A DNA stretch of 64,000 nucleotides. Origin: an uncultured Draconibacterium sp. (GTDB lineage: Bacteria; Bacteroidota; Bacteroidia; Bacteroidales; Prolixibacteraceae). The stretch is taken from NCBI RefSeq assembly GCF_963675585.1, contig NZ_OY776414.1:2769001-2833000 (forward strand). Reading direction: 5' to 3'. Below the pieces are notes generated by a model. That model saw only the letters and a program-made list of their open reading frames with translations. It was not told the DNA's origin and did no database searches. Positions 8,307 through 31,120 of this stretch are shown here, piece after piece. Position 1 is the first letter of the stretch, and each line of letters starts with the position of its first letter. The translations under genes and the position numbers were made by a program.

Positions 8307-8660
8307 GAATTCCTTTAACCTAAAATAATACTCTGTTGTCTATCATTCGATAAATTAATACCTGTAGCCTGTTTTTCCATTTGCTATGGCTAAACACGTT
8401 TGTTAAAATTAAAATAGAAATTAATACGGCGAAGAACAATTGATATGTTTTCAAACAAGTTTATCCCCTGCCTCTGCTTACGCGCATAGCGTGAAATAAC
8501 TTATTCCCAGAATCACCCACTCCTTCCCTCTCTCCTTGTCCGAAAATCGACAAGAACTTCTCATTTGGTCTTTTTGGGCATTTAAATGAACCACGTGGAG
8601 TAAATAAAAAATGGATGTATACCTAACATTGCGGCAGTAATAACAATAACAGTAAATAAG
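8307..8660. other. Divergent intergenic region with shared promoter element A
   Basis: Holds the leader of the minus-strand gene starting at 8306 and, near its right end, promoter element A for the serine hydrolase gene. I see no small gene in the rest. Confidence 0.5.
8570..8633 (+). promoter_or_regulatory. Shared promoter element A (before the serine hydrolase)
   Basis: First of five promoters with the same geometry: GGG at 8576, GGAGTA at 8597 (21 bp on) and a -7-like TAACATTG whose ATTG is at 8628 (31 bp on). The leader then reads AGTAATAACAATAACA before the ATG at 8661. The upstream TTTTTGGGCATTT matches the corresponding box before 26915. Confidence 0.6.
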
Positions 8661-9998
8661 ATGAAAACGACATTAAGTATGCTATTTGCAATTCTGCTAT
8701 TTGCAAGTTGCGCAAACAATGAAAGCTCGAAGGAAGAGAGTAAAAAAATGAAAGCTAAGCAGTCGGAACAAATATCGGAATTACAATCTGTGGCAGCACT
8801 AAAAGATGGCATTGCGCCGGAGATAGTTCTTGAATACCGACGGGAATACCGCAGCAAAGATTTTCTGGTAAATGGGAATTTAGGAACCTACAGTTTTATA
8901 AATACGCCCGAGTTTTATCAAACAGCTACCGTTAATCGTGGTGCCGGCCAGGTGGCAATGCTGGAAAAGGAGCTTGATGCCACTTTGTTAAATACCCAAA
9001 CCGATACTGATCTTGGGGAAATGACATTAGGCGATCTTATTACCAACGAAGATGCCCGCATGCAGGGAGTGTTGGTGATCCACAATGGTAAAATTGTGTT
9101 GGAAGAATATCCCGGAATGCGCGAGCTGGACAAACACAGTTGGTTTTCAGCATCGAAACAGCTGGTGGGATTAACCACGCACATTTTAGCAGAAGAAGGA
9201 GTAATAGATCTGGAGCAAACGGTAAATCACTACCTGCCCGAATACGACAGCGACGATTGGAAAAGAATAAAAGTGAAGCACCTTTTACATCACATGGCAG
9301 GTATGGATTACGTAGAAACCAATGCAAACTTTATGGACCCGGAACATGCTTTGTCGCAGGTTACCAAATACGCGCTTGCTTCGCGTTACGAAGACGGCGG
9401 AGTATCGGCTTTTGACCTGCTAAAGGATGTAAAAAGCTACATTGAGCCGGGTGTTAAATACGACTACGCATCGCCAAACACGCAGATATTAGGGTTTATT
9501 ATCGAGCGGGTTAGCGGTGAAAAATACGAAGATGTAATAAGCGAACGTATTTGGACCCGGGTAGGTATGGAAAGCGATGGTCATTATGCATTATCGGCAC
9601 AGGGCGAACCCTTGTCGGCCGGTTTGTTTGCATCGCGCCTCCGCGATTTTGGCCGCTTTGCACTATTGTACACCCCCAGCTGGAATACAGTAGCCGATGA
9701 GCAAATTGTGAGCGACACTTATTGGGAAAAGGTGTACGACAACAGCTATGCCGATGCCCTGAAACGTGGCGTTGAAACCGACAAGTCGAAATATTTTAAA
9801 GACGGACAGTCGCATGCAACCTACCAGTGGGATTTGGTATTCGACGATGGCGACCTTTTTAAAGCAGGCCGCTACGGACAGGGAATTTATGTATCACCCG
9901 AAACCAATACGGTGGTGGTGTATTTCTCTAGTGTGTACATGAACGAAGTATATTTCCCGGGATTTGCCCGTCAGCTGTTACAACAAAACTACAGGTAA
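8661..9998 (+). CDS. Beta-lactamase-family serine hydrolase, lipoprotein
   Basis: Class C beta-lactamase/esterase-fold enzyme that should hydrolyse an ester or amide through an acyl-serine. It starts with a lipoprotein signal (LLFASC, Cys17), so it is anchored facing the periplasm or surface. The catalytic SxxK is SASK (Ser163-Lys166); the second motif is Tyr269 in DYASPN, where the usual YxN is YAS with Asn two residues later. The signature KHLLHHMAGMDY (about 206-217) is typical of the non-lactamase members. At 445 residues it is normal length. It has its own promoter and is probably monocistronic. True substrate is unknown; antibiotic hydrolysis is unlikely on family grounds. Confidence 0.9.
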   Translation: MKTTLSMLFAILLFASCANNESSKEESKKMKAKQSEQISELQSVAALKDGIAPEIVLEYRREYRSKDFLVNGNLGTYSFINTPEFYQTATVNRGAGQVAMLEKELDATLLNTQTDTDLGEMTLGDLITNEDARMQGVLVIHNGKIVLEEYPGMRELDKHSWFSASKQLVGLTTHILAEEGVIDLEQTVNHYLPEYDSDDWKRIKVKHLLHHMAGMDYVETNANFMDPEHALSQVTKYALASRYEDGGVSAFDLLKDVKSYIEPGVKYDYASPNTQILGFIIERVSGEKYEDVISERIWTRVGMESDGHYALSAQGEPLSAGLFASRLRDFGRFALLYTPSWNTVADEQIVSDTYWEKVYDNSYADALKRGVETDKSKYFKDGQSHATYQWDLVFDDGDLFKAGRYGQGIYVSPETNTVVVYFSSVYMNEVYFPGFARQLLQQNYR

Positions 9999-10186
9999 CA
10001 ATGGGCAACAAAAACAGTACTTAAAGCGTATAGTTTTACGAACTTTAAATTAGCATATGATTGCTATTCTTTTAAAATTCCGTATTTTACCAAAAGAAGT
10101 TGAATGGCTAATTATTTCATAGAACATTAAAAAAACAAGTTAACAAAACAGTTTAACTACATAGAAACACAGTAAAAAAGAAAGAA

Positions 10187-11902
10187 ATGAAAAATCGAAA
10201 AAAAAGATTTATAGTGTATTTGTTCAGCGCACTTATGGCATTAAGTGTAATAAGCTGCACAGAACAACAGGAGAAAGAGCTTAAAATTTATCATGGAGGA
10301 ACAATTCTAACGGTCGACAGCGACTTTTTGGAAGTGGAAGCCATTGTTTTTAAAGACAATAAAATTCTGGCAACCGGCGATTTCGAGGCCATGAAAAAGA
10401 ACTACGGAAAAAATTCAGCGCTTGTTAACCTTGAAGGCAAAACAATGCTTCCGGGATTTATCGATCCGCACGCTCACGTATTGTCATTCGCGCCGGTACG
10501 TTTTCTAACCGAAAACATTGGCGTAACCAACTTTGCCACCACCGAAGAGGCTTTGGCTCACTTGAAGAAAGTGGCATCGGAGCGCCCAAAAGGCGAATGG
10601 ATACTAGGCAGTGGATGGGATCCTTCCATTCAGGACGGGATTTCTGAATTAACCTTTAAAGAACTGAATGCGGTTTCAACCGACCATCCTGTTTTTGTAC
10701 TGAATACCTCGGGGCATTTGGCTTATGTAAACGAAAAAACCTACGAGGCAGCAGGTATTACTCAAGATGTGGTAAACCCTCCGGGAGCCGAATATTCGCG
10801 GGACGAGAACGGCAAATTAAACGGTGTAATTAAAAACAATGTGGCCTATTTGCCGGTATGGCTGGCAAATCCGGCGGCTGCAACACTTGATATGACCGAA
10901 GCTTTAATCTCGCTGTTGAATGAGTTTAACCAATACGGTGTTACCACTACCAGCGAATTTGCCCTGGGAGCAGCAACACAAAGTCATACCGAAGCCGATT
11001 TATTATTTGCGGCCACCGAAAGAGACGATTTTTCGGCGCGTGTTATGGCCTATCCCATGTATACCATAAGCGAACAGTGGGACAAGGCAGGAACAAAGAT
11101 GTACGACGGCAACGACCTGGCAAAAATTGTAGGATTTAAATTTATTGCCGACGGTTCGAACCAGGGATATACCGGGCTTCAGCGCGAACCTTATTTCGAT
11201 CCGGAGCACGCCGGAGAACACGGTATTGCCTACATGTCGGTGGACCAACTAAAGGAAATGACAGAATACAGAGCCGGGCAAGGCTGGCACATGTCGTTGC
11301 ACGGCAATGGTGATGCGGCCATCGATAATATCTTAGATGTAATGGAGTATCTGAAAAGCAAAGGCTATGATCTTTCTAAAATCAGGCCCCGCATTGAGCA
11401 CTGTTCCATTCTGCACGACGATCAGATTGAGCGAATGAAAGAGTTGGATGTTTCGGCAAGTTTCCTTATTGGCCATGTTCACTACTGGGGAACTGTAATG
11501 CGCGATAAAGTATTCGGACCTGAAAAGGCGATGTTGCTAGACCGTGCCGCAAGTGTTGAAAAAGCGGGTGTTTCGTATACCTTGCAATCAGACTTTTCAG
11601 TTACCGAGCCCGATATGTTACGCATGATACAAACAGCTGTTGAGCGTAAAACATTCAAAGAACCGGACTATATTCTGAATCCCGACGAGCGAGTATCGGT
11701 TGAATCAGCTATTCGTGCCGTTACCATTGAAGCAGCCTGGCAAATGATGAGCGAAGACATAATCGGTAGTCTGGAAGCCGGAAAATATGCCGACTTTGTA
11801 ATTCTGGAAAACGATCCGCGAAAAGTAGATGAGTCAGAAATTTCGGAAATAAAAGTATTGGAAACCTGGATGAATGGCAAACAGGTTTATTCAGCAGAAT
11901 AA
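10187..11902 (+). CDS. YtcJ-type metal-dependent amidohydrolase, lipoprotein
   Basis: Amidohydrolase-3 superfamily enzyme of 571 residues with a TIM-barrel core, expected to hydrolyse an amide or cyclic amide using bound metal. A lipobox (VISC, Cys24) marks it as exported. The metal-binding HxH is in GFIDPHAHVL (His95, His97); further ligand-like motifs are LHGNGDAAIDN, HCSILHDDQ and a C-terminal LQSDFSVTEPD. The composite beta-sandwich halves are at the N-terminus (KIYHGGTILTVD) and C-terminus (GKYADFVILENDP). Neighbours are two other exported hydrolases on the same strand, but 188-bp and 197-bp gaps argue for separate transcripts. Confidence 0.93.
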   Translation: MKNRKKRFIVYLFSALMALSVISCTEQQEKELKIYHGGTILTVDSDFLEVEAIVFKDNKILATGDFEAMKKNYGKNSALVNLEGKTMLPGFIDPHAHVLSFAPVRFLTENIGVTNFATTEEALAHLKKVASERPKGEWILGSGWDPSIQDGISELTFKELNAVSTDHPVFVLNTSGHLAYVNEKTYEAAGITQDVVNPPGAEYSRDENGKLNGVIKNNVAYLPVWLANPAAATLDMTEALISLLNEFNQYGVTTTSEFALGAATQSHTEADLLFAATERDDFSARVMAYPMYTISEQWDKAGTKMYDGNDLAKIVGFKFIADGSNQGYTGLQREPYFDPEHAGEHGIAYMSVDQLKEMTEYRAGQGWHMSLHGNGDAAIDNILDVMEYLKSKGYDLSKIRPRIEHCSILHDDQIERMKELDVSASFLIGHVHYWGTVMRDKVFGPEKAMLLDRAASVEKAGVSYTLQSDFSVTEPDMLRMIQTAVERKTFKEPDYILNPDERVSVESAIRAVTIEAAWQMMSEDIIGSLEAGKYADFVILENDPRKVDESEISEIKVLETWMNGKQVYSAE

Positions 11903-11930
11903 AGTGCTGTAATTTTTCAGAAATCATATT

Positions 11931-11965
11931 TAAAGGGGTTGTCTTAAAAGGATGCCCCTTTTTCG
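11931..11965 (+). terminator. Likely terminator of the amidohydrolase gene
   Basis: AAAGGGG pairs with CCCCTTTT across an imperfect inner region and is followed by TTTTTC, 29 bp after the stop codon. Confidence 0.6.
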
Positions 11966-11993
11966 TTGCTATTAATTTTTTTTACATGTTGAC

Positions 11994-12057
11994 CCTTTTG
12001 GGATTCAGCCAGGCCGGTAAGGAGTAGAATACCGGAGCCAAAGCCCGCATCTTTGTA
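11994..12057 (+). promoter_or_regulatory. Shared promoter element B (before the M20 peptidase)
   Basis: GGG at 12000, GGAGTA at 12021 and TTTG at 12052: the same 21 + 31 bp spacing as elements A and C. The leader contains AGTAATAACGATA. CCGG flanks the second box on both sides, forming an imperfect inverted repeat. Confidence 0.65.
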
Positions 12058-12099
12058 CCGAGCATATAAACAAGTAATAACGATACAAAATTAAAATCA

Positions 12100-13461
12100 A
12101 TGAAAACAACGATTAAAAGAAATTGGATAAGCAGCATAATGAGTGTAATAGTACTTTTTACCTCGTTTAGTTTAAGCGCACAGGAACGCACCCTCCCGCA
12201 ATCGGTAATCGATAAAATGGAAAAGGTAGTAGATGCGAATGCCGAATACATTCAGGACATTTATAAAGACATCCACGAATTTGCCGAACTTCCTTTTATG
12301 GAGTTCCGCACAGCCGGAGTGGTTGAAAGAGAGTTAACAAGTCTGGGATTTGAGGTACAAACCGAAATAGGAATTACCGGCGTTGTCGGAATCCTCCGGA
12401 ACGGCGACGGACCAGTGTTTATGTACCGTGGCGATATGGATGCGCTTTCGATTAAAGAAGAAACCGGGTTGCCCTATGCCAGCAAACAGGTGGTAACGAA
12501 CCGGGAGGGAGAAGTAGTGCCCGTTTCGCACATGTGCGGACACGATGCCAACACCACCTTTTTAATTGGCCTGGCGCATACCATGGTAGAAATGAAAGAC
12601 CAGTGGTCGGGAACTTTGGTATTGGTGGCACAACCTGCCGAAGAAATTGTGCAGGGCGCCCAGGCTATGATCGACAGCGGATTGTACACCAAATACAAGG
12701 TGCCCAAACCCGATTATTTTCTGGCACAACACACCGGGCCGCTTCCGGTTGGTTCGATAACAACAACAGCTGGCCGCATAATGACCGGAACCACGCACAT
12801 GGATGTTACTTTTCACGGAATTGGCGGGCACGGCTCTTCGCCGCATCATGCAAAAGACCCGGTGGTAATGGCCGGAATGGCAATCGTTCAGTTGCAAACA
12901 GTTGTGTCGCGTTATACCGACCCGAACGAGGTAGCCGTATTAACCATTGGTAGCGTTCAGGCCGGGAAAGACCACAATGTGATTCCGACAGAAGCACACC
13001 TGAAACTAAAGCTGCACTTTTCGAACGAGGACACCATGAATAAAATGATTAAAGGCATTCACAACATAGTAAACAGCATTGCGCTGGCGAACGATGTGCC
13101 GGCAGAAATGATGCCAACCATAACACAAAGTGGGTTTGGCCCGGCAGTGTATAACGATGAGGAATTTATAAACCAGATAAGAAGTGTAAGCGAAAAAGTT
13201 GACTTTGTAAACAAGCGTATCGATGACTTTGTATCCTCAGGCTCGGAAGATGCCTTTGCCCTGATAAACGGATTGGAAGATGTAAAAGGGGCTTACCTGT
13301 TTTTAGGTGGCGTTACTGTTGAAGAGTTTACACAGGCCCAAAAAGAGGGGAAAGAGTTTCCGTTTTTTGTACACGAACCGTATTACCACGTGTCGATGGA
13401 TGGAATAACCTTTGGAACAAAAACAGCAGCTCTAATAGCCCTCGATATTTTACAGAAATAA
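12100..13461 (+). CDS. Exported M20 family amidohydrolase/peptidase
   Basis: M20D-type (hippurate hydrolase/AbgB-like) enzyme that cleaves N-acyl amino acids or related amides. A cleavable signal peptide ends about residue 27 (SLSAQ), without a lipobox. Core motifs: YRGDMDAL (about 109-116), metal Cys and His in HMCGHDA (Cys146, His148), catalytic Glu pair in QPAEE (181-182), dimerisation-domain GGHGSSPHHAKDPV, and a C-terminal His in PYYHVSMDG. Most relatives are cytoplasmic, so an exported version suggests processing of external acyl-peptides. Length (453) is slightly above average because of the signal peptide. Confidence 0.92.
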   Translation: MKTTIKRNWISSIMSVIVLFTSFSLSAQERTLPQSVIDKMEKVVDANAEYIQDIYKDIHEFAELPFMEFRTAGVVERELTSLGFEVQTEIGITGVVGILRNGDGPVFMYRGDMDALSIKEETGLPYASKQVVTNREGEVVPVSHMCGHDANTTFLIGLAHTMVEMKDQWSGTLVLVAQPAEEIVQGAQAMIDSGLYTKYKVPKPDYFLAQHTGPLPVGSITTTAGRIMTGTTHMDVTFHGIGGHGSSPHHAKDPVVMAGMAIVQLQTVVSRYTDPNEVAVLTIGSVQAGKDHNVIPTEAHLKLKLHFSNEDTMNKMIKGIHNIVNSIALANDVPAEMMPTITQSGFGPAVYNDEEFINQIRSVSEKVDFVNKRIDDFVSSGSEDAFALINGLEDVKGAYLFLGGVTVEEFTQAQKEGKEFPFFVHEPYYHVSMDGITFGTKTAALIALDILQK

Positions 13462-13488
13462 TAAACTTTTTAAATAATAGATGATGTA

Positions 13489-13517
13489 GAGCCCGGCCTT
13501 TGGTCGGGCCTTTTTGT
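13489..13517 (+). terminator. Terminator of the M20 gene
   Basis: GCCCGGCC and GGTCGGGC form an 8-bp stem (one G-T pair) around TTT, followed by a T run, 28 bp after the stop. Confidence 0.85.
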
Positions 13518-13595
13518 GGCTTATCGTGCAATATAAATTTATTCCGGATTTTAAGGTGAGTGTGAAATAAATTGCAGGAAAACAAAGCGATAGAT

Positions 13596-13642
13596 AAAAA
13601 AGAGACTCGCCTGCTTTTTTTTTAAAACAATGCAGGCGAGTC
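13596..13642 (-). terminator. Terminator of the sulfatase gene
   Basis: A perfect 11-bp inverted repeat (GACTCGCCTGC / GCAGGCGAGTC) with a T-rich loop; on the minus strand it is followed by TCTCTTTTTTATC, giving the U tract. It lies 84 bp beyond the sulfatase stop. Confidence 0.85.
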
Positions 13643-13725
13643 CGGCTTCAACAACCTAACAGCACGGGGCGGTTAAATACTTGCCAATGCTGTCGGGATA
13701 TAATACACCCTTATCAAAAGGTTGT

Positions 13726-16086
13726 TTAATTCGCTTTAGGGATGCGGACAACTAGCTTGTCGAGCGTTCCACTAAATTCATTTTCACGATTGTACTCTTT
13801 CGACACCAGTGTTCCGGTATCTTCTCCAACATCAAAGGTCTCCGACAAGGAATACATTACTGCATGAATACGACCAATTTCACCCTGACCGACCTTGTTA
13901 CCATTGATGTAAAGCGTTACCATACCTGACAAGCCTTCTGCAACCTCGTATTCGGCTTTTAGCTCCACCTCACCGCTAGGGACAGGAACATTCGAACGAA
14001 CAAAATACCTGTCTTCGTTAAAAGCATTATAAGCGTATACCAACCTGTTGTTATGTACATAGAAAGCGTATCCGCCATACAATCCACCGGCTGCAACGAG
14101 TACACCTTCGGCTCCGCCATCAGGAATTTTTGCATATGCCGTGATGGTGTGGTTACGATTCTTAACAGGTGGCGAATACTGTTCAGATATACGTGTTGCA
14201 CCGGGAGGATAGAATACAAACTCTTCGCGTTGCGGAGCGTAATGGCTGTTTGTTTCACCAATTCGGGCAGCAATATTGTCATACAAGGGATAAACATTGT
14301 ATTTCCACGCATCCTCGTCCCAGGCTTCCTGCAGTTCTTTTAACTTTTCAGGATACTGGTCCACCACGTTATTGGATTCCGAAAAGTCTTCGTTCAAATT
14401 GTAAAGTTCCCACACATCGTCTTCGAACGGGAATGTACCGCCGGTGGACCAGGGCATACGGTTTGCATGGATGGTCACTGCCTTCCAGCCATCCATATAC
14501 ATCGCCCTGTTTCCCAGCAATTCATAATACTGGCGGGTGTGGCGGTCATCCGCATCTTTATCGTTAAATGTATAAGCAAAGCTGGTACCATCAAAAGGTA
14601 GTTGCTTAATTCCATCTATTTCCTCAAGCGGATCTAAACCTAAGGCTTCAAGAACGGTAGGACCAATATCTATAATATGGTGATACTGGGAACGAACTTC
14701 TCCCTTTGCCTCAATACCCGAAGGCCAATGCACAATCATTGGATCCTGCACACCTCCCCGGTGGACGATCTGTTTAAAATATTTGAACGGAGTGTTACCT
14801 GCCCATGCCCAACCGGCATGGTAGTGGTTAAAAGTCTCAGCTGTTCCCCATTCGTCGTAAAAACGTTGATTGCTTTCAAAACTTGCTTGTTGACCATTTA
14901 CAAACAGCACCTCGTTATGGGTTCCAGCAAGTCCTCCTTCGGCACTGGCTCCATTATCCGAAGTAATAATGATTAAGGTGTTGTCGAGTTCTCCGATGCG
15001 TTCCAGCGTTTCAACCATTCTGCCGATTTCCATATCAACATGATCGAGCTGAGCAGCGAAGGCTTCCATCTCGCGTGCATACATCTTCTTTTCTTCATCG
15101 CTAAGGCTGTTCCAGGCCGGAATGTCATCTGGTCGTTCGGTCAGAACTGTTCCTTCAGGAATTACACCATTTTCTATTTGTCTCGCAAAAGTCATCTCCC
15201 GGGCTTTGTCCCAGCCCATATCAAATTTTCCGCGGTATTTTTGCAGATACTCATCCGGAGCGTGGTGCGGCGTATGTGCAGCTCCCGGTGCCCAAAACAT
15301 AAAGAAAGGTCGATCGGGGTCGATTGAAGCCTTGCCGGTCAGATAATAAATCGCTTTATCGGCAAGATCGGTAGACAGGTGATAATCGGGATTGTCACGG
15401 GCCGGCTCAACCGGTTCGTGGCCCGCATACATCACCGGGGCAAAGTTGCTCACGTCGGCTGCCATAAATGTATAGGTATGGTCGAAACCATCGTGTGTTG
15501 GCCAGTAAGTGAACGGACCAACCTGATGCACCTGGAATCCGGGCGTGTGATCCCACTTACCTATGGCATAGGTAGACCAACCGGCTATCTGGGCATTACG
15601 CGATATTGCCTGAGCCGATAAAGGAACCCGACCTGCATATCCGGGAAATCCCATCGCTGTGTTTGCATGCGATCCGAGCCCAATGGAGTGATGGTTACGC
15701 CCTGCCAGAATTGAAGCACGCGAAGGCGAGCAAAGGGCTGTTGTATGGAAATCGGTATAAATCAAACCTTCAGCGGCAAGACGGTCCATGTTCGGTGTTT
15801 CAGTTAAGCCACCATAGGAACCGAGCTGTCCGTAACCCACATCGTCAAGCAGGATAATCAGTACATTCGGCTCGTCTCCGGTAAAGGTCTTCTCTTCCGG
15901 CCAAACCTCGACTGAGTTCTCATAGCTTTTGGCGATCTTGCCGTCGAAGCCCTCAACTGTTTTGGTTTTAATTTCGGTATCGGTTTTGGTTTCGGTATCG
16001 GTCTGGGAGCATGCAAAGCCAGCCCAGCAAACAGCCAGCAAGGCAGCAAATCTTGTGGCAATTTTAATAGGTAAAGGTAAATTCAT
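13726..16086 (-). CDS. Arylsulfatase (S1 family) with C-terminal extension, lipoprotein
   Basis: Type I formylglycine sulfatase of 786 residues, releasing sulfate from a sugar or aryl ester outside the cytoplasm. A lipobox (GFAC) follows a short signal. The sulfatase signature LCSPSRASILAGR places the Cys to be converted to formylglycine at residue 119; metal ligands fit LLDDVGYG near the N-terminus and TSDNGAS mid-protein. The sequence resembles the AtsA-like S1_4 arylsulfatases. After the catalytic domain (to about 590) a C-terminal beta-sandwich-like region carries YINGNKVGQGEIG and ends in FSGTLDKLVVRI, similar to LamG-type domains. No maturation enzyme or carbohydrate locus adjoins it. 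Confidence 0.93.
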   Translation of the reverse strand: MNLPLPIKIATRFAALLAVCWAGFACSQTDTETKTDTEIKTKTVEGFDGKIAKSYENSVEVWPEEKTFTGDEPNVLIILLDDVGYGQLGSYGGLTETPNMDRLAAEGLIYTDFHTTALCSPSRASILAGRNHHSIGLGSHANTAMGFPGYAGRVPLSAQAISRNAQIAGWSTYAIGKWDHTPGFQVHQVGPFTYWPTHDGFDHTYTFMAADVSNFAPVMYAGHEPVEPARDNPDYHLSTDLADKAIYYLTGKASIDPDRPFFMFWAPGAAHTPHHAPDEYLQKYRGKFDMGWDKAREMTFARQIENGVIPEGTVLTERPDDIPAWNSLSDEEKKMYAREMEAFAAQLDHVDMEIGRMVETLERIGELDNTLIIITSDNGASAEGGLAGTHNEVLFVNGQQASFESNQRFYDEWGTAETFNHYHAGWAWAGNTPFKYFKQIVHRGGVQDPMIVHWPSGIEAKGEVRSQYHHIIDIGPTVLEALGLDPLEEIDGIKQLPFDGTSFAYTFNDKDADDRHTRQYYELLGNRAMYMDGWKAVTIHANRMPWSTGGTFPFEDDVWELYNLNEDFSESNNVVDQYPEKLKELQEAWDEDAWKYNVYPLYDNIAARIGETNSHYAPQREEFVFYPPGATRISEQYSPPVKNRNHTITAYAKIPDGGAEGVLVAAGGLYGGYAFYVHNNRLVYAYNAFNEDRYFVRSNVPVPSGEVELKAEYEVAEGLSGMVTLYINGNKVGQGEIGRIHAVMYSLSETFDVGEDTGTLVSKEYNRENEFSGTLDKLVVRIPKAN

Positions 16087-16426
16087 AATCTGTTTTTTTT
16101 CAGTGGTTAGCTATATGCTACTGTTTTTTAAAGTGTGGTATATTTAGATGTAGGATTGTACTGCATTTTTAGCTACAGCTTTGTTTTAAATATACAATTT
16201 ATTACAAATTATCGATAAAAAAAAAGCGCGAACAAATTCTATTTTATGTAGTTTGAGCAAATATTATGTTCCATTCTTTGATGCGGTTGATTTGCAAGCT
16301 GTGTACTGCTGCCAAAAAAATTCTATCGCGTGATAAATATCACAGCAATTTAATACACCAAACAAAAGGGCATCCGCTGTGGATGCCCTTTTGGTCAGTT
16401 ATGAGTTAATAAACGAACCGATGCCC
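16087..16426. other. Intergenic leader of the sulfatase and terminator of the upstream gene
   Basis: 340 bp. The left half is the AT-rich leader of the sulfatase gene, the right end the terminator at 16366-16393. No gene, repeat or clear operator seen. Confidence 0.5.
16366..16393 (-). terminator. Terminator of the 240-residue protein gene
   Basis: AAAAGGGCATCC and GGATGCCCTTTT form a perfect 12-bp stem with a 4-nt loop; terminal A and T runs make it usable on both strands. Confidence 0.9.
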
Positions 16427-17149: not shown

Positions 17150-17280
17150 AGTTTTTGATTTTTAATGTTTGTAAAGGTCTCAATGACTCACGGGTTAATG
17201 ATGTGATTGTTGAGTTTTGTTGATGTAAGTTACAATATGTAAACAGTTAGCACCAAAATTTAAAACCTGCTATTGAGCAT

Positions 17281-22240: not shown

Positions 22241-22263
22241 AAGTTTACAAGAAAGTGATCGAT

Positions 22264-23121: not shown

Positions 23122-23157
23122 GTTTTTATAGTTTGTTTCTTGTAATGATAACTTAAG

Positions 23158-23206
23158 CGAATTTGAAGATAGCGGTTTCCAATTTCATTGATCTAAATTA
23201 AGAAGT
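23158..23206 (-). promoter_or_regulatory. Shared 30-bp element and -7 box before the CPBP/thioredoxin operon
   Basis: Minus strand: ACTTCTTAATTTAGAT, then CAATGAAATTG, then, 25 bp from the start of CAATG, CAAATTCG at 23165-23158. The left half is less conserved than in the copies at 21551 and 24937, but length and spacing are identical. Confidence 0.55.
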
Positions 23207-23220
23207 GAAAATGGAAGACT

Positions 23221-24249: not shown

Positions 24250-24869
24250 TGTTGTTCGAATTTATAAGTTATACCCACATTCATTGCAATATGCGGAAGG
24301 AATATGTGGTTATATGATGATTGTAAATAAACTTCAGGACCAAGGTGAACGGTCCAGTGCCGGTTCCCTTTTCGGGTGCTGTCGTACCCTAACAAAAATG
24401 ATGCATTGGGCATAAAATGAGCATGTCCCCGGTTATTTGCTTTTTCAACTCCACCATCCGCAGCTCGCTGGTAAATTGTACCTGCAGCAAATGAGTGCAT
24501 ATAACCAATTCCCGCATTTATGTCGGCAAATACAGAACCTGCAGCTACTCTTGTGCCAATGGTTGATTTTAAAAATAAGGATGTATTATTCCAGCGATGC
24601 CAATATCCACCTAAATCAACATCCCAATGAACAGTCAGGCGATTGTTTTGTGACAGTGTATAATCGACACCAAGAGTCAAGCCCGGATGTAGCACTAGTT
24701 CGCCGAAATAGTTGAGTTTGAAAGCAACTTTTTCATGGTGGATAAACCTGGAAAATGCACCGCGATTAGTTGATGATTGTTTGAGTTCCTGAGAATACAC
24801 ACCAGAACTTAGTAAACAAATGAAAATCACCGTTAAAAGGATTGAGACTATGGTCTGTGTTTTTTTCAT
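24246..24869 (-). CDS. Outer-membrane beta-barrel-like hypothetical protein
   Basis: A 207-residue exported protein with a signal peptide ending near GVYSQ. The rest is made of alternating strands with aromatic ends (KLNYFGELVLHPGLTLGVDY, HWTVHLGPEVYLQSSYNH) and ends MNVGITYKFEQQ, the pattern of a small 8-10 strand barrel. I cannot name a substrate or family. It is first in the operon with the hydrolase, under the shared 30-bp element. Confidence 0.75.
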   Translation of the reverse strand: MKKTQTIVSILLTVIFICLLSSGVYSQELKQSSTNRGAFSRFIHHEKVAFKLNYFGELVLHPGLTLGVDYTLSQNNRLTVHWDVDLGGYWHRWNNTSLFLKSTIGTRVAAGSVFADINAGIGYMHSFAAGTIYQRAADGGVEKANNRGHAHFMPNASFLLGYDSTRKGNRHWTVHLGPEVYLQSSYNHIFLPHIAMNVGITYKFEQQ

Positions 24870-24916
24870 AAGGTATACCTGAGATCGTTTAACTTTTCAG
24901 TTTTACTATTTGAGAA

Positions 24917-24966
24917 CAAAATTATTCGAGGCCCGGTTCAATTCCATTGACTTGGGTTAAGAAATG
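24917..24966 (-). promoter_or_regulatory. Shared 30-bp element and -7 box before the barrel/hydrolase operon
   Basis: Minus strand: CTTAACCCAAGT, CAATGGAATTG, and exactly 25 bp from the start of CAATG a perfect TAATTTTG (TAnnTTTG) at 24924-24917. Best -7 match of the three copies. Confidence 0.62.
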
Positions 24967-24983
24967 ATTTGGCGGCCTCTATT

Positions 24984-25048
24984 GTGTTGTTAAACCGTAT
25001 TGCTAACTTTAAACACAATTAAAAACCAAAAACCGTTGAATACACACC
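24984..25048 (+). promoter_or_regulatory. Duplicated promoter-like segment, copy 2
   Basis: Contains TTGTTAAAC, ATTGCTAACTTTAAACACAA and CCGTTGAATAC, as at 17573-17633, about 180 bp before the histidine kinase start. Confidence 0.45.
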
Positions 25049-25185
25049 CAAAATATCCTTAGTTAAAATTACAATGAATCAAACAGGTTTTTTATATCTC
25101 TATTTGGGATAGTATTATTACTTTTAGTAAGGAGATATTCCAATAATGGCACTTGGGTATAAAAAGTACTTAATCATAACTCGAT

Positions 25186-26448
25186 ATGAGAAAAACAAAT
25201 AATGAACAAGAACTTTTAAGTGAGAATGAAAAGCTAAAACTTGAATTAGCAAAAATAAAAGGGAAGTTCTCAAAGACAAAAAGTAAGCTTGAAACATTAA
25301 TTGCAGAAAGAAAAATGTTTCTAAGTTTAACTTACGCAGTACCATATGGCATCTATCAAATAAAAGTGTTAGCGGATACCAAAACCAGTGAAGAGCAATG
25401 GCAAAACTCAGTTGATGCTCCTTTTCGCGTACTTTTTGTTAACAAACGTTTTTGTGAAATATTAAATATAGACAAAGAAGCTTTTATAAAAACCCCCGGA
25501 ATAATTTTCGATTACATTAACAAAGAAGATAAATCCGATTTCGCAAAAAAGAATGCTGAAGCTAATTTAAAAGAAATCCCTTTTAAATGGGAAGGACGGT
25601 TTTTTGTTAATGAAAAAATTATTTATGCGCATTTTGAGTCATTACCAAAAAAGCAGAGAAATGGAGACATTAACTGGACAGGTATATTATATGATATATC
25701 TGAGCGTAGAAGAGCTGAGGCAGAAATACTCGAAATGAATTTAGAATTAAAAAAAATGAATGATGAAAAGGATAAACTATTTTCAATCATTGCGCACGAT
25801 TTAAAAAGTCCGTTTAATTCAATTTTAGGATTTAGTGAACTTCTTATCGAAAAAATACGAAACAAAGACAACGAAGCAATTAAAGAATATTCAGAAATTA
25901 TACTTAATTCATCAAAAAAAGCCAATCAGCTAATTGCTAATTTAATGGAATGGTCTCTTTTACAAAGCGGAAGGATGAATGTTTTTCCAGAATTCTTTGA
26001 TATAAATTTTGAGATAGACAATGTGACTAATTTGTTTTATGAAATTGCAAGACAAAAGACAATTACAATAAATAAAAACACACCAAAAACAACCATTGCT
26101 TACGGTGACAAAGTAATGATAAACACAATCATACGCAATTTGGTTTCGAATGCGATTAAATTCACCCGGGATGGAGGAGCAATAATCATCTCAGCAAAAA
26201 AATTAAAAAATGAAATATTAATTTCAGTGATCGACACGGGTGAAGGCATTCCACCTACCTCATTACACAAATTATTTAGCTTAGTAGAAAATATCTCTAC
26301 ACATGGAACCCAAAATGAAAAAGGGACAGGGTTAGGATTAATCCTTTGTAAAGAATTTATTGAAAAAAATAATGGGAAAATCTGGGTGGAAAGCACACAA
26401 AATGTTGGTTCGAAATTCCATTTTACTGTTCCCAATGGAAGTAATTAA
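25186..26448 (+). CDS. Soluble PAS-domain sensor histidine kinase
   Basis: Cytoplasmic kinase of 420 residues with no transmembrane segment. An N-terminal coiled coil (about 8-45) leads into a PAS domain (about 50-180), then HisKA with phospho-acceptor His204 in SIIAHDLKSPFNS, then a complete HATPase_c: N box NTIIRNLVSNAIKF, G1 VIDTGEGIPP, G2 GTGLGLILCKEF. No response regulator is adjacent, so it is an orphan here. Upstream leader is about 140 bp and shares a segment with the redoxin gene leader. Confidence 0.93.
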   Translation: MRKTNNEQELLSENEKLKLELAKIKGKFSKTKSKLETLIAERKMFLSLTYAVPYGIYQIKVLADTKTSEEQWQNSVDAPFRVLFVNKRFCEILNIDKEAFIKTPGIIFDYINKEDKSDFAKKNAEANLKEIPFKWEGRFFVNEKIIYAHFESLPKKQRNGDINWTGILYDISERRRAEAEILEMNLELKKMNDEKDKLFSIIAHDLKSPFNSILGFSELLIEKIRNKDNEAIKEYSEIILNSSKKANQLIANLMEWSLLQSGRMNVFPEFFDINFEIDNVTNLFYEIARQKTITINKNTPKTTIAYGDKVMINTIIRNLVSNAIKFTRDGGAIIISAKKLKNEILISVIDTGEGIPPTSLHKLFSLVENISTHGTQNEKGTGLGLILCKEFIEKNNGKIWVESTQNVGSKFHFTVPNGSN

Positions 26449-26576
26449 CCATCAACAATTTTATTGAATTAAAAGATTATATGTTTGATAAACCTGACCA
26501 TTATTCATTGGACGCACATGAAGTAATACTATTGAAAACGAACTAAACAAATCATTGCAATCCCATAATCATTAAA

Positions 26577-26612
26577 CAGATTCCTCTCCGTAAAACGACT
26601 GTTCGGAATGAC
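26577..26612 (-). repeat. GTCATTCCGAAC-type intergenic repeat fragment
   Basis: On the minus strand GTCATTCCGAAC is followed 14 bases later by GAGGAATCTG. Motifs of this form are, to my knowledge, widespread intergenic repeats in Bacteroidota. Only one copy was noticed in this window. Confidence 0.4.
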
Positions 26613-26806
26613 AAGTTTATAGCGACTTTTAAGCTCACCCGCTTGGGCTGCTTCGGCAATAATTTGCGCCCACAAAGGCTCTCACGCTGTCCGTTCGTCC
26701 AAGTTTCGTTTTCAACAACAAAGTAAAACAAAGCACTTTGTTTCAGCACATTCAGCTTCGCGGTGTGTTTGTGCTACTCAAAAACAACTCTTTTTTACAT
26801 CTTGGC

Positions 26807-26870
26807 CCTTTAGGGATTTTACATGGACATTTCGGAGTAAAATTCCGGGTGGCAATGCTGCATCTTTGTA
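26807..26870 (+). promoter_or_regulatory. Shared promoter element C (before the 56-residue lipoprotein)
   Basis: GGG at 26813, GGAGTA at 26834 and TTTG at 26865, the same spacing as A and B; GCATCTTTGTA is identical to element B, and the leader reads AGTAATAACAATTAAAAT. Confidence 0.65.
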
Positions 26871-26914
26871 TCGTTGAAATAAACAAACAGTAATAACAAT
26901 TAAAATTTAAAACG

Positions 26915-27085
26915 ATGAAAAATTTAAAAAGATTAGCAGTTGCATTTGTATTGTTGGCAGGTATTGGAGTTGGAATGGCGTCATGTTCAGACGACAACTA
27001 TTACGAGGGTCCTGAAAAGGAAATTCCGATGTTACCGGGTACAGATTATCCGATTAAACCCGGTACTGAGGCATACAACAACTAA
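26915..27085 (+). CDS. Small lipoprotein, 56 residues
   Basis: Short gene with ATG start and TAA stop. Signal peptide MKNLKRLAVAFVLLAGIGVG, lipobox MASC (Cys24), then about 32 mature residues that are acidic and Pro/Tyr-rich (SDDNYYEGPEKEIP, LPGTDYPIKPGTEAYNN). It is flanked by a good promoter (element C) and a strong terminator, so a dedicated single-gene transcript is likely. Function is unknown; no family recognised. Confidence 0.82.
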   Translation: MKNLKRLAVAFVLLAGIGVGMASCSDDNYYEGPEKEIPMLPGTDYPIKPGTEAYNN

Positions 27086-27131
27086 AATGGAAGTTCATAG
27101 AATTGTATGTGAATTGAACAAACGACAATTT

Positions 27132-27182
27132 AAAAGCCCGATACCTTGAGAACTTATTGTTTTCGGTATCGGGCTTTTTTTT
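27132..27182 (+). terminator. Terminator of the small lipoprotein gene
   Basis: AAAAGCCCGATACC and GGTATCGGGCTTTT form a perfect stem around an AT-rich loop, followed by a T run. Confidence 0.9.
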
Positions 27183-27312
27183 AGCATAAAAAAATTTTAT
27201 GTGAGACGAATATTCCATAATTTTATAAAATAGGAGCTGCTCCGGCAGAAATTAGAAGCAGACACAATTACGAACAAATGATAATATCGAAACAAGCATA
27301 TAACGATAAAAA

Positions 27313-28530
27313 ATGAAAACTAAAATTGCAACGCTCTTTTTATTCGTACTTTTTGCGGCTTTTACCGGCAATGCGCAGAGTGATTCTGTAAGTGTTGAAG
27401 TTGGAAAATTCTACCTCTCGCCATTACCAATTATCTCCTCAAATCCGGCATTTGGATTTGTCTACGGGGCAGCAGCCTCGGCGGGAGTTTATTTTGGCGA
27501 TCCTTCCACTACTTCCATGTCGAATGGTTTTTTAACCGGATCGTATTCAACAAAAAAGCAGTTGATGTTTACTTTTAAAACAACCATGTATTCCAACAAC
27601 AACGACTGGATGCTGATGGGAGACTGGCGTTTGTTCTTTTCGTCGCAACCTACCTACGGACTTGGTACAGGCCCGCAAGCCGATGATTTAACAGGCATAC
27701 CTGAACTTTATGAAGCAGACTCTGATATCTCGGAGGGTGAGTTAATGGAGTTTAATCTCATTCGTTTTCATCAAACTGTTCTGAAACAAGTTAAACCTAA
27801 TTTCTTTTTAGGACTTGGATACCACCTCGATGCACATTTCGACATAAAGGATCAACTGCTGGATCTGGAGAGTGAGCCTCAGGTGTTAACCAACCACTAC
27901 CGCTACAGCGTCGAAAACGGTTTCGATCCCGAGAAATATACCACTTCAGGTGTTTCGGCCAATGTTATTTACGACAGCCGCGACAATGTGGCCAACCCTT
28001 ATACAGGCAGGTTTGCCTTTGCTTCGTTCAGGGCCATTCCAAAGTTTCTGGGAAGTACAAAAAATGCCACAACTTTATGGCTCGAATACCGCGACTATTT
28101 TTCGCTAAGTGAATTAAATCCGCGGAATATTTTCGCTTTTTGGACCTATGGAAATTTTACAACAAGTGGTACTTTACCTTATATGAACCTTCCTGCTTTG
28201 GGTTGGGACCAAATGGGACGTTCGGGAAGAGCATTTCCACAGGGACGCTTTAGAGGGGAAAATTTATATTATGCCGAAGCAGAATGGCGTTTCCCTTTAA
28301 CCCTGTTAAAAAGAAATCCGGATTTGTTGGGCGGCGTTGTTTTTGCAAATATGACCACTGCCTCTAACAAAGCCGATGAGGTAAAACTGTTTAACTATGT
28401 TGAACCCGCTGCCGGTTTAGGATTGCGGATAATGATTCAAAAACAATCGAGAGCCAACTTAACAATCGATTATGGATGGGGCATGAATGGCGAAGGCGCG
28501 TTTTACCTGAACCTGAACGAATACTTCTAA
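27313..28530 (+). CDS. BamA/TamA-like outer-membrane surface antigen protein
   Basis: A 405-residue outer-membrane barrel of the bacterial surface antigen (Omp85/D15) type without POTRA domains. Signal peptide ends at GNAQ. Family features: an early IISSNPAFGFVYGAAAS strand, VIYDSRDNVANPYTGRFAFASF (the DxRDNxxxPxxG signature), QGRFRGENLYYAEAEWRFPL, and a last strand ending in Phe (NLNEYF). Such short members are often partner barrels of unknown role rather than the essential BamA. It has an independent terminator. Confidence 0.9.
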   Translation: MKTKIATLFLFVLFAAFTGNAQSDSVSVEVGKFYLSPLPIISSNPAFGFVYGAAASAGVYFGDPSTTSMSNGFLTGSYSTKKQLMFTFKTTMYSNNNDWMLMGDWRLFFSSQPTYGLGTGPQADDLTGIPELYEADSDISEGELMEFNLIRFHQTVLKQVKPNFFLGLGYHLDAHFDIKDQLLDLESEPQVLTNHYRYSVENGFDPEKYTTSGVSANVIYDSRDNVANPYTGRFAFASFRAIPKFLGSTKNATTLWLEYRDYFSLSELNPRNIFAFWTYGNFTTSGTLPYMNLPALGWDQMGRSGRAFPQGRFRGENLYYAEAEWRFPLTLLKRNPDLLGGVVFANMTTASNKADEVKLFNYVEPAAGLGLRIMIQKQSRANLTIDYGWGMNGEGAFYLNLNEYF

Positions 28531-28656
28531 GCGAGTAGTTAACCATTTCCTGATTTCGTCCTGTACATCATTTACATCAGCTTAAGATATTGCGCCCTAA
28601 AATCTGCAATTCGAAATAACAAGCAGGAATCCACCATTATTATACTCGAAAAACAA

Positions 28657-28692
28657 GGAGCAACTTTGCATTAAAGTTGCTCCTTTGTTTTT
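28657..28692 (+). terminator. Terminator of the BamA/TamA-like gene
   Basis: Perfect 11-bp stem GGAGCAACTTT / AAAGTTGCTCC with a 5-nt loop and following T-rich stretch. Confidence 0.9.
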
Positions 28693-28784
28693 TCAAATTC
28701 AATTCTACTTCAAACATTTGCCGGAGGAAATAGGCTCCACACTGTCATCCATTCCGTATTTTTTTAGGTATGATTCGCTTTGGA

Positions 28785-28848
28785 CTTTGTGGGCGACAGC
28801 TTGAGCTTTTCTGAGCAAAACAGGGCTTTACAAATGGTGATATTTGCA
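28785..28848 (+). promoter_or_regulatory. Shared promoter element D (before the His/Trp/Tyr-rich protein)
   Basis: GGG at 28791, TGAGCA (degenerate second box) at 28812 and TTTG at 28843: spacing 21 + 31, as in A-C. Leader AGTAATAACAATTAAAAT is identical to C. Confidence 0.6.
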
Positions 28849-28877
28849 TCAGTAATAACAATTAAAATAGTGAAGTT

Positions 28878-30857
28878 ATGAAAGCGATATTAGGTACAGT
28901 CCTGGTTGTGATGCTTTCACTAGGTGTTTATGCATCACCCAATAAATCCGGAGAGAAAAAAACAAATAGCCCGGTACGAGAATTTTCGGTAGAAATACTG
29001 AATGTTTCACCTGAATTAAAGGCAGGCGAAAATGGAACCATTGAGATGAGCAGTGCTTTTATGGCAAAGCAGAATGATTCATCGGAAGAACTGTTTGGCT
29101 CGTTTTGGGCCGAATTTGAATTTAAAAAAGGAGATTCAAACAATGTTTACGATGTTCTGAGTTGGAATATTACCGACATTCGGGTGGCAGACGAATTATC
29201 TGCTGAAGAGACAGAACAGATTAAAAATGTATTCAAGCAGGAATTGGAAAACAACTTTGACGAATTCCCCAAAATTCAGATTGATAAGATTCTGAATACA
29301 GAACAAGACAGCCCTGTTGGATTTAACACCGAAGCTCCTTCAATCATTTATTCCAACCAACCTTCGGCCCTTATTATAATTGACGGAGAGCCCTATTACG
29401 AAGAGTTGGACAAACGTTATTCGAAGGTTTCGAATGCAGGGGCATTTATTGTAAAAGACAATAAAAAAGAAGTGTATTACATGTATGGCGGGGGTTTGTG
29501 GTTCTCATCCAACGATGCTTTAACTGGGTGGACATACAATGACAATGTGCCAAACCGTATAAACAATGTGATGAAAAAACATGCACGCGAATTATATGAT
29601 ACGATGCAAAATGAGCAGTTTCAGGCCAGAACACTACCCGATATCATTGTAACTACCGAACCGGCAGAGCTAATTTCTACCGATGGAAGTGCGAAGTATG
29701 TGCTTATACCAAATACAAATCTGGCTTTTGTTGAAAATTCGGATGCTGAACTTTTCAGAGATTTAAACAGCAACAACTTTTATGCGTTGTTTTCGGGTCG
29801 GTGGTTTGTATCTGATCAGCTGGAAAGAAACTGGCAATATGTTGCACCCGGAACACTACCTGCTGATTTTGCCAAAATACCTGACGGGCACGACAAAGCA
29901 AATGTACTTGTGAGTGTACCCGGAACAAAAGCGGCTGAAAATGCAGTACGGGATGCACAGGTGCCTTCCGTTTCGAAGAAAGATATTTCAAGCATTTTAG
30001 ACAGCAGAGTAGAATATAACGGAGATCCGGAGTTTGCGTCCATTGATGGAACAGAATTGAAGTATGCAGTAAATACTTCGAATCCGGTACTTTTGTGGAA
30101 CAACCGCTATTATTTGGTTGAGGATGCTGTATGGTACAATTCATCAAATCCTTACGGTCCCTGGCAAATTGCCACGCAACGGCCTGTAGGAGTCGAGAAT
30201 ATTCCGGCTGATAATCCGCTTTTCAATATAAAATACGTCCATATTTATAAAAATACCGACCGGGTGGTGTACACCGGCTATACCTCAGGATATACAGGAT
30301 CTTACGTTTATGGACCTACAGTGGTATATGGAACAGGTTTTCATTACCACGGATGGTACGGTCATTACTACTACCATCACCCAATGACCTACGGGTACGG
30401 CTTTTTCTACGATCCGTTTTACGGATGGGTACCAGTTTACTCGCCCTGGTTCCGTTCTTCGTTTTACTGGAACTGGCACATGAGCTGGGGATGGGGATGG
30501 AATTGGCACTGGCACTGGCACGGTTACCGTCCACCAATTCACAGGCCACCACACCACCGGCCACCGTCAGGTGTCAGGCCCGAGCAGCCCATTGAAAGAC
30601 CCGGACGTCCCGGACAACCGGCTACTTTACCAGCTCAACCGGACAGAAGACCGACTCAGCCGGCGACAAGGCCACAACAGCCTTCAACAAGGCCACAACA
30701 GCCGGGCATGCGTCCGACTCAGCCTTCAACAAGGCCAAGTCAGCCAGGTGTACGGCCTACACAACCCATTAGCAGGCCAAGTCAACCCGCAGTCCGGCCC
30801 AGCCAGCCATCTGCCCGACCGATGCAACCAGCAGCAAGGCCGATGCCAATGCGCTAA
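28878..30857 (+). CDS. Exported His/Trp/Tyr-rich protein with Pro-rich tail
   Basis: 659 residues. Signal peptide ends near VYA. Residues about 150-470 carry repeated units of the type TDGSAKYVLIPNTNLAFVEN, NNFYALFSGRWFVSD, TELKYAVNTSNPVLLW, NNRYYLVEDAVWYNS and GPWQIATQRPVG. This matches the proteins often annotated as carbohydrate-binding family V/XII. After YVHIYKNTDRVVYTGYTSGY comes a 75-residue segment extremely rich in Tyr, His, Gly and Trp. The last 110 residues are RPxQP-type repeats, probably extended and wall- or surface-exposed. True ligand unknown; the annotation name is from memory of relatives. Confidence 0.85.
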   Translation: MKAILGTVLVVMLSLGVYASPNKSGEKKTNSPVREFSVEILNVSPELKAGENGTIEMSSAFMAKQNDSSEELFGSFWAEFEFKKGDSNNVYDVLSWNITDIRVADELSAEETEQIKNVFKQELENNFDEFPKIQIDKILNTEQDSPVGFNTEAPSIIYSNQPSALIIIDGEPYYEELDKRYSKVSNAGAFIVKDNKKEVYYMYGGGLWFSSNDALTGWTYNDNVPNRINNVMKKHARELYDTMQNEQFQARTLPDIIVTTEPAELISTDGSAKYVLIPNTNLAFVENSDAELFRDLNSNNFYALFSGRWFVSDQLERNWQYVAPGTLPADFAKIPDGHDKANVLVSVPGTKAAENAVRDAQVPSVSKKDISSILDSRVEYNGDPEFASIDGTELKYAVNTSNPVLLWNNRYYLVEDAVWYNSSNPYGPWQIATQRPVGVENIPADNPLFNIKYVHIYKNTDRVVYTGYTSGYTGSYVYGPTVVYGTGFHYHGWYGHYYYHHPMTYGYGFFYDPFYGWVPVYSPWFRSSFYWNWHMSWGWGWNWHWHWHGYRPPIHRPPHHRPPSGVRPEQPIERPGRPGQPATLPAQPDRRPTQPATRPQQPSTRPQQPGMRPTQPSTRPSQPGVRPTQPISRPSQPAVRPSQPSARPMQPAARPMPMR

Positions 30858-30986
30858 TGAATGAATGTAGTGTAGCACTATAAAATATAGCAACAGGAAG
30901 TAGTTGCAAACGAAAATGATGTAACAATCAGCAAGAAGTTAAAGCATAACAGTTTTGTCGTTTGTTATTACTGTAGCTCAAAACGG

Positions 30987-31017
30987 GGGTAGGCATTTTA
31001 TGTCTGCCCTTTTTTCA
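30987..31017 (+). terminator. Terminator of the His/Trp/Tyr-rich gene
   Basis: GGGTAGGCA pairs with TGTCTGCCC (two G-T pairs) around a 5-nt loop, followed by TTTTTT. Confidence 0.7.
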
Positions 31018-31056
31018 TTACAGGGAAATGCCACAAATACTCCTTTTCAACTTGAG

Positions 31057-31120
31057 CCAAACGGGACAATGAACGAGCCTATCCGGCACTAAAAGCATGT
31101 TTGCACAAGCTACATTTGTA
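31057..31120 (+). promoter_or_regulatory. Shared promoter element E (before the 130-residue protein)
   Basis: GGG at 31063 and TTTG at 31115 (TACATTTG, a full TAnnTTTG match), the same 52-bp distance as in A-D. The second box is degenerate (CGGCAC at 31084). The leader reads ATAATAACAAGTTAAAAT. Confidence 0.5.

Follow-up and report, generated by a model that had tools for sequence, protein, structure and literature searches.

Five Draconibacterium promoters share a predicted tandem operator and point to a candidate AraC/XylS-type regulator

The window analysed here is a stretch of 64,000 nt from an uncultured Draconibacterium sp. (GCF_963675585.1, NZ_OY776414.1, forward-strand positions 2,769,001 to 2,833,000). 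Five of its genes are preceded by promoters that resemble one another (Table 1). Two of the products have no assigned function: the 56-aa lipoprotein, which had no match in Pfam or NCBIfam and whose relatives occur behind the same operator motif, and the 659-aa protein of family F0, which had no Pfam match at 0.001. As an earlier note on this DNA had stated, four of the five products appear by eye to be exported. This description fits only part of the candidate regulon as a whole, because a universal stress protein and an old-yellow-enzyme-like protein are also among the targets. Several targets are paralogs (small lipoproteins and beta-lactamase-fold proteins), and unrelated protein families also lie behind sites. 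Regulators encoded in the window include a Crp-like protein (19540), a histidine kinase (25186), whose family turns up in 4 of 21 stretches, and an ECF sigma factor (31885); all three are set aside here as less likely candidates, without being dismissed.

Table 1. Predicted operators, leaders, and genes of the window, and the candidate regulator (G000 coordinates). A and B are the two boxes of each half-site.
Feature	Position	Strand	Details
Predicted operator and core of gene 8661	8562..8634	+	A 8565-8570, B 8576-8578 (GGG); A 8586-8591, B 8597-8602 (GGAGTA); ATTG 8628-8631; predicted start ~8636
Leader GTAATAAC	8637..8644	+	24 nt before ATG
Lipoprotein, beta-lactamase-fold serine hydrolase domain, 445 aa	8661..9998	+	PF00144 E 2.5e-32; lipobox by eye
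Predicted operator and core of gene 12100	11986..12058	+	A 11989-11994, B 12000-12002 (GGG); A 12010-12015, B 12021-12026 (GGAGTA); TTTG 12052-12055; predicted start ~12060
Leader GTAATAAC	12074..12081	+	26 nt before ATG
M20-family amidohydrolase, signal-peptide-like start, 453 aa	12100..13461	+	PF01546 E 9.2e-23; TIGR01891
Predicted operator and core of gene 26915	26799..26871	+	A 26802-26807, B 26813-26815 (GGG); A 26823-26828, B 26834-26839 (GGAGTA); TTTG 26865-26868; predicted start ~26873
Leader GTAATAAC	26890..26897	+	25 nt before ATG
Small lipoprotein, 56 aa	26915..27085	+	Lipobox by eye
Predicted operator and core of gene 28878	28777..28849	+	A 28780-28785, B 28791-28793 (GGG); A 28801-28806, B 28812-28817 (TGAGCA); TTTG 28843-28846; predicted start ~28851
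Leader GTAATAAC	28852..28859	+	26 nt before ATG
Exported protein, family F0, 659 aa	28878..30857	+	Signal-peptide-like start by eye
Predicted operator and core of gene 31150	31049..31121	+	A 31052-31057, B 31063-31065 (GGG); A 31073-31078, B 31084-31089 (CGGCAC); TTTG 31115-31118; predicted start ~31123
Leader ATAATAAC (variant)	31124..31131	+	26 nt before ATG
Protein without signal peptide, 130 aa	31150..31542	+	N-terminus similar to the one in the old-yellow-enzyme-like regulon protein
F1, sole copy of the genome at E≤1e-40	G000:C4:3385306-3386289	+	Outside the window at a distance of ~0.55 Mb; in divergent orientation to another site

The earlier note had described these promoters as a GGG followed by a GGAGTA-like box at +21 and a TTTG-like core at +52, with a common leader. 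On re-measurement, this arrangement and the leader (A/G)TAATAAC were recovered in all five promoters. The description caught half of the operator: a TTG..C lies 11 bp 5' of the GGG in 5/5 sites and the second copy of the half-site had been overlooked. In every site, a two-part half-site, TTGRNC-N5-GGG, is repeated directly with a period of 21 bp; it consists of an A-box (TTGRNC) and a B-box (GGG or similar). The half-site spans columns 4-17, with its two sub-boxes 10-11 bp apart, and the columns G6/G27, C9/C30, and G16/G37 are invariant in the five sites. An offset of 21 gave the top score among offsets 8-49 in the five window sites and also in 46 genus sites, which had been selected using a matrix of the five. 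The information is concentrated in the boxes and the core, most spacer columns having 0-0.4 bits, and the repeats stop ~25 bp 5' of the core, leaving the start uncovered. Re-measurement and the comparison with marine relatives uphold a single common operator with a two-turn offset, tandem half-sites, and an activator-like position. Judged from sequence, its anatomy is of the AraC/XylS type and not of the LytTR type.

We scored each site with a matrix built from the other four, using DNA of the same genome. Among 231,283 positions, 0, 1, 2, and 7 scored better than the sites at 26799, 11986, 28777, and 8562, respectively, and 29 scored better than the most divergent one, at 31049; because three further candidate sites have their loci in the test DNA, some of these better positions may be true sites. 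When scored without its core, the site at 31049 was much less clear (227 better of 231,563 positions). Two models were built, R1 from the five window sites only and R2 with most of the genus sites it later finds; the independent count rests on R1, and the R2 matches in the genus are no independent count. The site at 8562 had an E of 5.4e-9 with R1, by construction because it was used to build this model, and that at 31049 had an E of 9.7e-4 with R2. A pattern scan of the window for the repeat with 3 mismatches was uninformative, with 12 matches versus 14.9 expected; the first genome pattern scan gave 24 versus 11 with the reversed pattern, and none of its 18 three-mismatch matches was retained when judged by eye. 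Sites inside one genome are partly related copies.

The leader element GTAATAAC was found ~25 nt 5' of the ATG at 29 of 49 genus sites and at none of 246 other genes. AGTAATAACAATTAAAAT has two exact matches in the genome, both inside the window, and nine with ≤2 mismatches (11 for the reversed pattern). The rarity of AGTAATAACAATTAAAAT and the absence of GTAATAAC from the 246 other genes led us to reject a general leader of the genome.

The earlier note had left the regulator unnamed; a specific candidate is now F1, one clade of 328-aa AraC-type regulators encoded outside the window. Full-length R1 sites were found in 7 of 41 genomes, which include all six F1-positive ones: 6/6 genomes with F1 have such sites, versus 1/35 without (Fisher 1.6e-6, a value that ignores relatedness). 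In one genome (G005, 99% complete), a strong site (E 4.8e-14) occurs without any F1 at E≤1e-40. The close F0 subfamily is likewise restricted to F1-positive genomes (6/6 with F1, 0/35 without). In the genus stretches, six out of eight F1 copies have a site in directly divergent orientation. Of 88 candidate stretches, the 80 best were retained, and plasmids, with 6 places, are represented by the best place of each of 3 records. In a broader collection, the motif occurs at 37 of 44 F1 loci (34 of 41 without the training genomes) versus none of 31 control loci, the remaining seven F1 loci having no motif match. It lies beside F1 in all three loci unused in training, and five rounds of a Markov control gave no motif match. 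Of the 71 motif matches in this collection, 22 fall within 450 bp 5' of F1, a space that represents 18,814 of 757,864 bases. A stricter text test revealed no clear upstream repeat at 22 of 45 F1 copies. Motif sites also recur in other genera. In an order-wide sample, F1 at E≤1e-40 was found in 1 of 198 genomes, that of the window itself, and this sample therefore allows no second test of co-occurrence. There, 18 other genomes accounted for 19 R2 matches at E≤0.01; 18 of the matches are partial, and one, in G142 (model positions 9-69, E 0.004), barely meets the full-length rule. Of the two outcomes that the earlier note had named as refuting its candidate regulon, randomly placed genome matches and a lack of conservation in relatives, neither was obtained, and the result favours the regulon.

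The C-terminal part of F1 is an AraC-type two-HTH DNA-binding domain, and its N-terminal half is strand-rich and may be cupin-like. All four F1 proteins scanned matched PF12833 (HTH_18) with E of 8e-16 or better, including 1.7e-17; the Pfam scan gave HTH_18 and HTH_AraC only, and no LytTR, kinase, or receiver domain. A sequence search of the PDB matched the HTH part alone (residues 222-318). The second HTH of F1 varies together with the operator. In regulators with PNF instead of SKF in this HTH, the B-box is GAT/GAC instead of GG: GG is present in 0/10 boxes at 5 PNF loci and in 26/28 boxes at 14 SKF loci, the exceptions being a GA in copy 2 at L121 and L124. An alignment (A3) covers 38 of the 44 F1 loci, with L127, L136, L139, and L142 among those left out; among the sites listed locus by locus, those of L102, L116, L122, and L135 were not used. 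The bipartite half-site pattern is clear and may reflect one sub-box per HTH; the PNF loci of the correlated change may represent one evolutionary event.

We regard the five elements as predicted operators of one AraC/XylS-type activator, F1, with a probability of about 0.8. F1 would combine a predicted N-terminal sensor domain with the two-HTH domain, HTH1 probably contacting the A-box and HTH2 the B-box. With TTTG taken as -8 to -5, following passages of PMC6847099, the two copies would lie at ~-71 to -58 and ~-50 to -34, adjoining the polymerase. Two F1 molecules, probably controlled by a small ligand, would then sit side by side and bring polymerase to a promoter of the TAnnTTTG type, and F1 would act in trans on the window promoters and on at least three more (C3:183065, C4:513510, and C4:3385072). 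We infer direct binding by F1, and activation rather than repression. A fatty-acid-type ligand would be a guess by analogy.

Another regulator could occupy the sites, either a different AraC-type protein or a response regulator that works with a kinase such as 25186, with F1 as a mere neighbour or fellow target. The site without F1 in G005, the 28 first-look candidates that the F1 profile gave in the window genome, and the recurrence of the kinase family are in line with this, which we nonetheless consider unlikely given that F1 follows the sites in six out of six genomes and that its HTH2 and the B-box change together. F1 might also act as a repressor: many sites are flanked by F1 on one side and a divergent gene on the other, and so could control F1 too. 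This seems quite improbable, because the repeats leave the start free, as in class II AraC/XylS activators (CphR, -35 to -69, in the relevant passages of PMC6205950).

The promoter cassettes might instead have been copied along with their genes and have no common regulator, the similarities being leftover ancestry. The paralogous targets and the near-identical leaders of some copies fit such a history, but the low information of the spacers relative to boxes and core, the unrelated families behind sites, and the recurrence in other genera make it very improbable. We give hardly any credence to operators of a LytTR-type response regulator, the family suggested in the earlier note. LytTR proteins, too, bind direct repeats in tandem with a spacing of about two turns, but their half-sites are short, one-box, and ~9 bp long. 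The bipartite half-site of the operators described here and the AraC-only domains of the linked F1 led us to set this identity aside, as far as sequence can tell.

Under the preferred assignment to F1, the likeness of five promoters becomes a regulon open to testing. One regulator is proposed for it, its operators seem to follow a code that pairs HTH2 with the B-box, and among its predicted targets are the 659-aa exported family and a family of 56-aa lipoproteins that is as yet unstudied. Bacteroidota are not known to use Shine-Dalgarno signals, and the leader result suggests a possible translation-level element. A doubtful extension is that each promoter has two layers of control: transcription would be governed by the predicted F1 operator, and a second layer, confined to this genus, would be the leader GTAATAAC(AATTAAAAT). 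This element keeps its place ~25 nt 5' of the start codon irrespective of how far away the core is, and would act post-transcriptionally, either by enhancing the start site or by serving an RNA or an RNA-binding protein as target. In this extension, the F1 clade would sense amphiphilic or acylated compounds and switch on exported hydrolases in Bacteroidota.

Among open-licence PMC papers, none of the listed titles and abstract openings described the F1 regulator or the operator motif. The whole-chain Foldseek matches of F1 were best for ToxT, Rns, and CsvR (E 1.8e-8 to 2.1e-6), solved structures for which some PDB titles name fatty-acid-bound forms; the TM-score over the F1 query is only 0.26-0.28 and the identity 10-14%. 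The hybrid two-component systems of Bacteroides combine a sensor kinase and an AraC-type domain in one polypeptide; F1 has 328 aa and matched neither a kinase nor a receiver domain in Pfam. What these systems share with F1 is the AraC-type DNA-binding domain in Bacteroidota (PMC11253607). Predicted AraC-family rhamnose regulators, including those of the Bacteroides group, have direct-repeat motifs with 21-bp periodicity (excerpts of PMC3870299), a likeness of period, and theirs are sugar regulons. In the operators of XylS (Pm) and CphR, according to passages of PMC6205950 and PMC5481539, a bipartite half-site occurs twice in direct orientation by the core, with box A (TGCA) and box B (GGNTA) 6 bp apart; the CphR repeats span -35 to -49 and, further 5', -55 to -69. 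Here too, the distance from the TG of the A-box to the GG of the B-box is 10 bp. In contrast, the letters (TTGRNC/GGG), the TAnnTTTG core of Bacteroidota, the regulator clade, and the unrelated targets differ. Two marks of the AraC/XylS family, a two-HTH domain in the candidate F1 and a ~21-bp tandem direct repeat 5' of the core, are both present.

Re-measurement returned the same coordinates and spacings in all five window promoters where the earlier note had described a GGG, a second box and a TTTG-like core. The gap-free alignment of these sites has 15 invariant columns, including a TTG and a C upstream of the GGG that were absent from the earlier list. Three of these columns (G27, C30 and G37) repeat three others (G6, C9 and G16) at a distance of 21 bp. 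This offset gives the best self-match among those from 8 to 49, both in the five sites (0.73; mean 0.01, SD 0.20) and in 46 sites from the genus (1.06; mean 0.01, SD 0.25), the latter having been chosen with the matrix of the former. Each half-site is an A-box (TTGRNC) followed by a B-box (GGG or similar).

The profile model built from the five window sites (R1) ranks them first in the 6.03 Mb genome by construction; the next full-length matches are three sites on C4 and C3 (see table), with three partial matches interspersed among them. With a second model (R2), trained on 52 sites that include these three, all eight have E ≤ 1e-3. Across 41 genomes, where stricter filters mean that weak matches can be lost, R1 gave 36 full-length matches (from model position 9 or lower through 69 or higher) at E ≤ 0.01 in seven genomes: six in the window's own (G000), five in G003, one in G005, five in G007, nine in G008 (all inside 20 kb), eight in G013 and two in G020. 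R2 gave 47 full-length matches, most of them sites from its own training, all in the same seven of 40 genomes, with the remaining 33 lacking any; one G020 site was split into two adjoining partial matches.

When all genes of the window and of 20 fetched stretches were compared, a family of AraC-type regulators, F1, emerged with eight copies in seven stretches. Six of these copies have a directly divergent site (L077, L078, L079, L086 and, twice, L082), and L072 and L075 have a copy with sites within a few kb. At E ≤ 1e-40, F1 is present in six of the 41 genomes (G000, G003, G007 with four copies, G008, G013 and G020). Full-length R1 sites occur in all six versus one of the 35 others, G005, in a count that ignores kinship among genomes. 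The close subfamily of the exported window protein 28878 (>1200 bits) is found in 6/6 and 0/35 genomes, respectively; distant relatives of this protein (346–415 bits) occur in 13 of the 41, both with and without F1.

Searching wider genome contigs for F1 gave 88 candidates, of which the best 80 were kept and provided 75 loci. The matrix of the 46 genus sites matched 37 of the 44 F1 loci (72 matches), none of the 31 control loci, and none of the Markov versions of the F1 loci in five rounds. Excluding L106, L121 and L124, which come from genomes represented in the matrix training, 34 of 41 loci have a match. The 450 bp before F1 hold 22 of 71 matches (42 loci), and all 23 near matches listed with a score of at least 14 are oriented away from F1. 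On plasmids of Persicobacter and Aureibacter, three loci outside every training set had best scores of 19.6 (before F1) in one, 25.8 (after F1) and 18.9 (before it) in another, and 25.1 (upstream of an arylsulfatase gene whose end adjoins F1) in the third; the control maximum is 14.4, barely below a second match in L240 (14.7).

Sites, genes and loci associated with the motif
Location	Feature	Observation
C4:513510	Site	R1 E 0.007; universal stress protein gene downstream
C4:3385072	Site	R1 E 0.27; old-yellow-enzyme-like protein gene downstream
C3:183065	Site	R1 E 0.57; relative of 56-aa lipoprotein 26915 downstream
C4:510675	Weak full-length match	R2 E 0.145; upstream of P-type ATPase gene, near stress-protein gene
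L084 -9280 (G005); L072 +8141 (G008)	Near-identical strong site	Each upstream of a 67-aa predicted membrane protein; G005 without F1 at E ≤ 1e-40
10187–11902	Amidohydrolase gene	No own site in window; L072 relative has match just upstream (13742)
26915–27085 (+); L072, L073, L074, L076, L077, L080, L087; L107, L110, L111, L126	Tiny lipoproteins	Divergent, adjoining site in L107, L110, L111, L126
28878–30857 (+)	659-aa exported protein	W/H/Y-rich stretch, long proline-rich tail; no Pfam match at 0.001
31150–31542 (+)		First ~25 residues like old-yellow-enzyme-like regulon protein (L086, L073, L074); remainder unlike
40783–62638	Seven ORFs, 789–826 aa	Consecutive or nearly; perhaps paralogous
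L101–L144	F1 relatives	Draconibacterium, Maribellus, Labilibacter, Carboxylicivirga, Saccharicrinis, Flammeovirga, Tamlana, MAGs
L145–L175	Control loci	Similar to F1 chiefly in HTH part
L106, L112, L136	Beta-lactamase-fold proteins	Divergent, adjoining site
L123	M20-like protein	Divergent, adjoining site
L109	YceI-like protein	Divergent, adjoining site
L139	DUF3604	Divergent, adjoining site
L141	Alkyl sulfatase	Divergent, adjoining site
L115, L118, L120, L127, L142	Choloylglycine-hydrolase genes	Downstream of weak or variant sites
L102	SCO1-like gene	No site
L241 (Aureibacter plasmid pAT1)	Three annotated AraC-family regulators in 9 kb	Beside sulfatase maturase and arylsulfatase
L242	Arylsulfatase	Also adjoins F1

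The tiny lipoproteins (...SCSDDYYYEEP..PG type) recur behind the motif, at times several per genome, with 52–68 aa in the genus and 61–128 aa elsewhere; those scanned had no Pfam match. The N-terminus encoded at 31150 is perhaps a remnant or a reused fragment. The L072 relative of the amidohydrolase gene has a motif match and the window gene has no site of its own, so site gain or loss is traceable.

Of the 49 genus sites, 29 have the leader element GTAATAAC, which lies outside the site-picking matrix, after the core; none of 246 other genes (≥100 aa) of the same stretches is preceded by it. Where a start is called (28 cases), the element stands 23–27 nt before the ATG in 27, and its distance to the TTTG varies (9, 16, 19, 22 or 25). 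About 20 of the 49 sites lack it, and the pattern GTAATAAC-N12-22-ATGAA has 10 matches genome-wide, five of them regulon promoters, versus five for the reversed pattern. The element is either associated with the regulon and the translation start or else a relic of copied cassettes.

In reports on the CphR and XylS operators, each HTH is assigned one sub-box (PMC6205950, PMC5481539). Among F1 copies, HTH1 (SKLKRDF) varies little, as does the A-box. HTH2 is IPNF in five of 45 copies (L115, L117, L118, L120 and L240), and the B-box of these loci is GAT or GAC in 10/10 copies; in this comparison 8 helices were unread, and a text test showed no clear repeat at another 18 loci. Among SKF-type loci, 14 show a clear repeat upstream: GG occurs in all 14 first copies and in 12 second ones, with GA in the second copy of L121 and L124. 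L104, L107 and L111 hold high-scoring sites by matrix, though without a clear repeat by the text test.

Judging from these sequence comparisons, the sites are a real regulon with putative AraC/XylS-type operators, for which F1 is a specific candidate regulator. Its signal might, as a guess, be an acyl or amphiphile compound. For F1 of L101, which shares 63% identity with the own-genome copy, the AlphaFold model has a mean pLDDT of 87; the best chain-long structural matches of this model, at low TM-score, are ToxT, CsvR and Rns.
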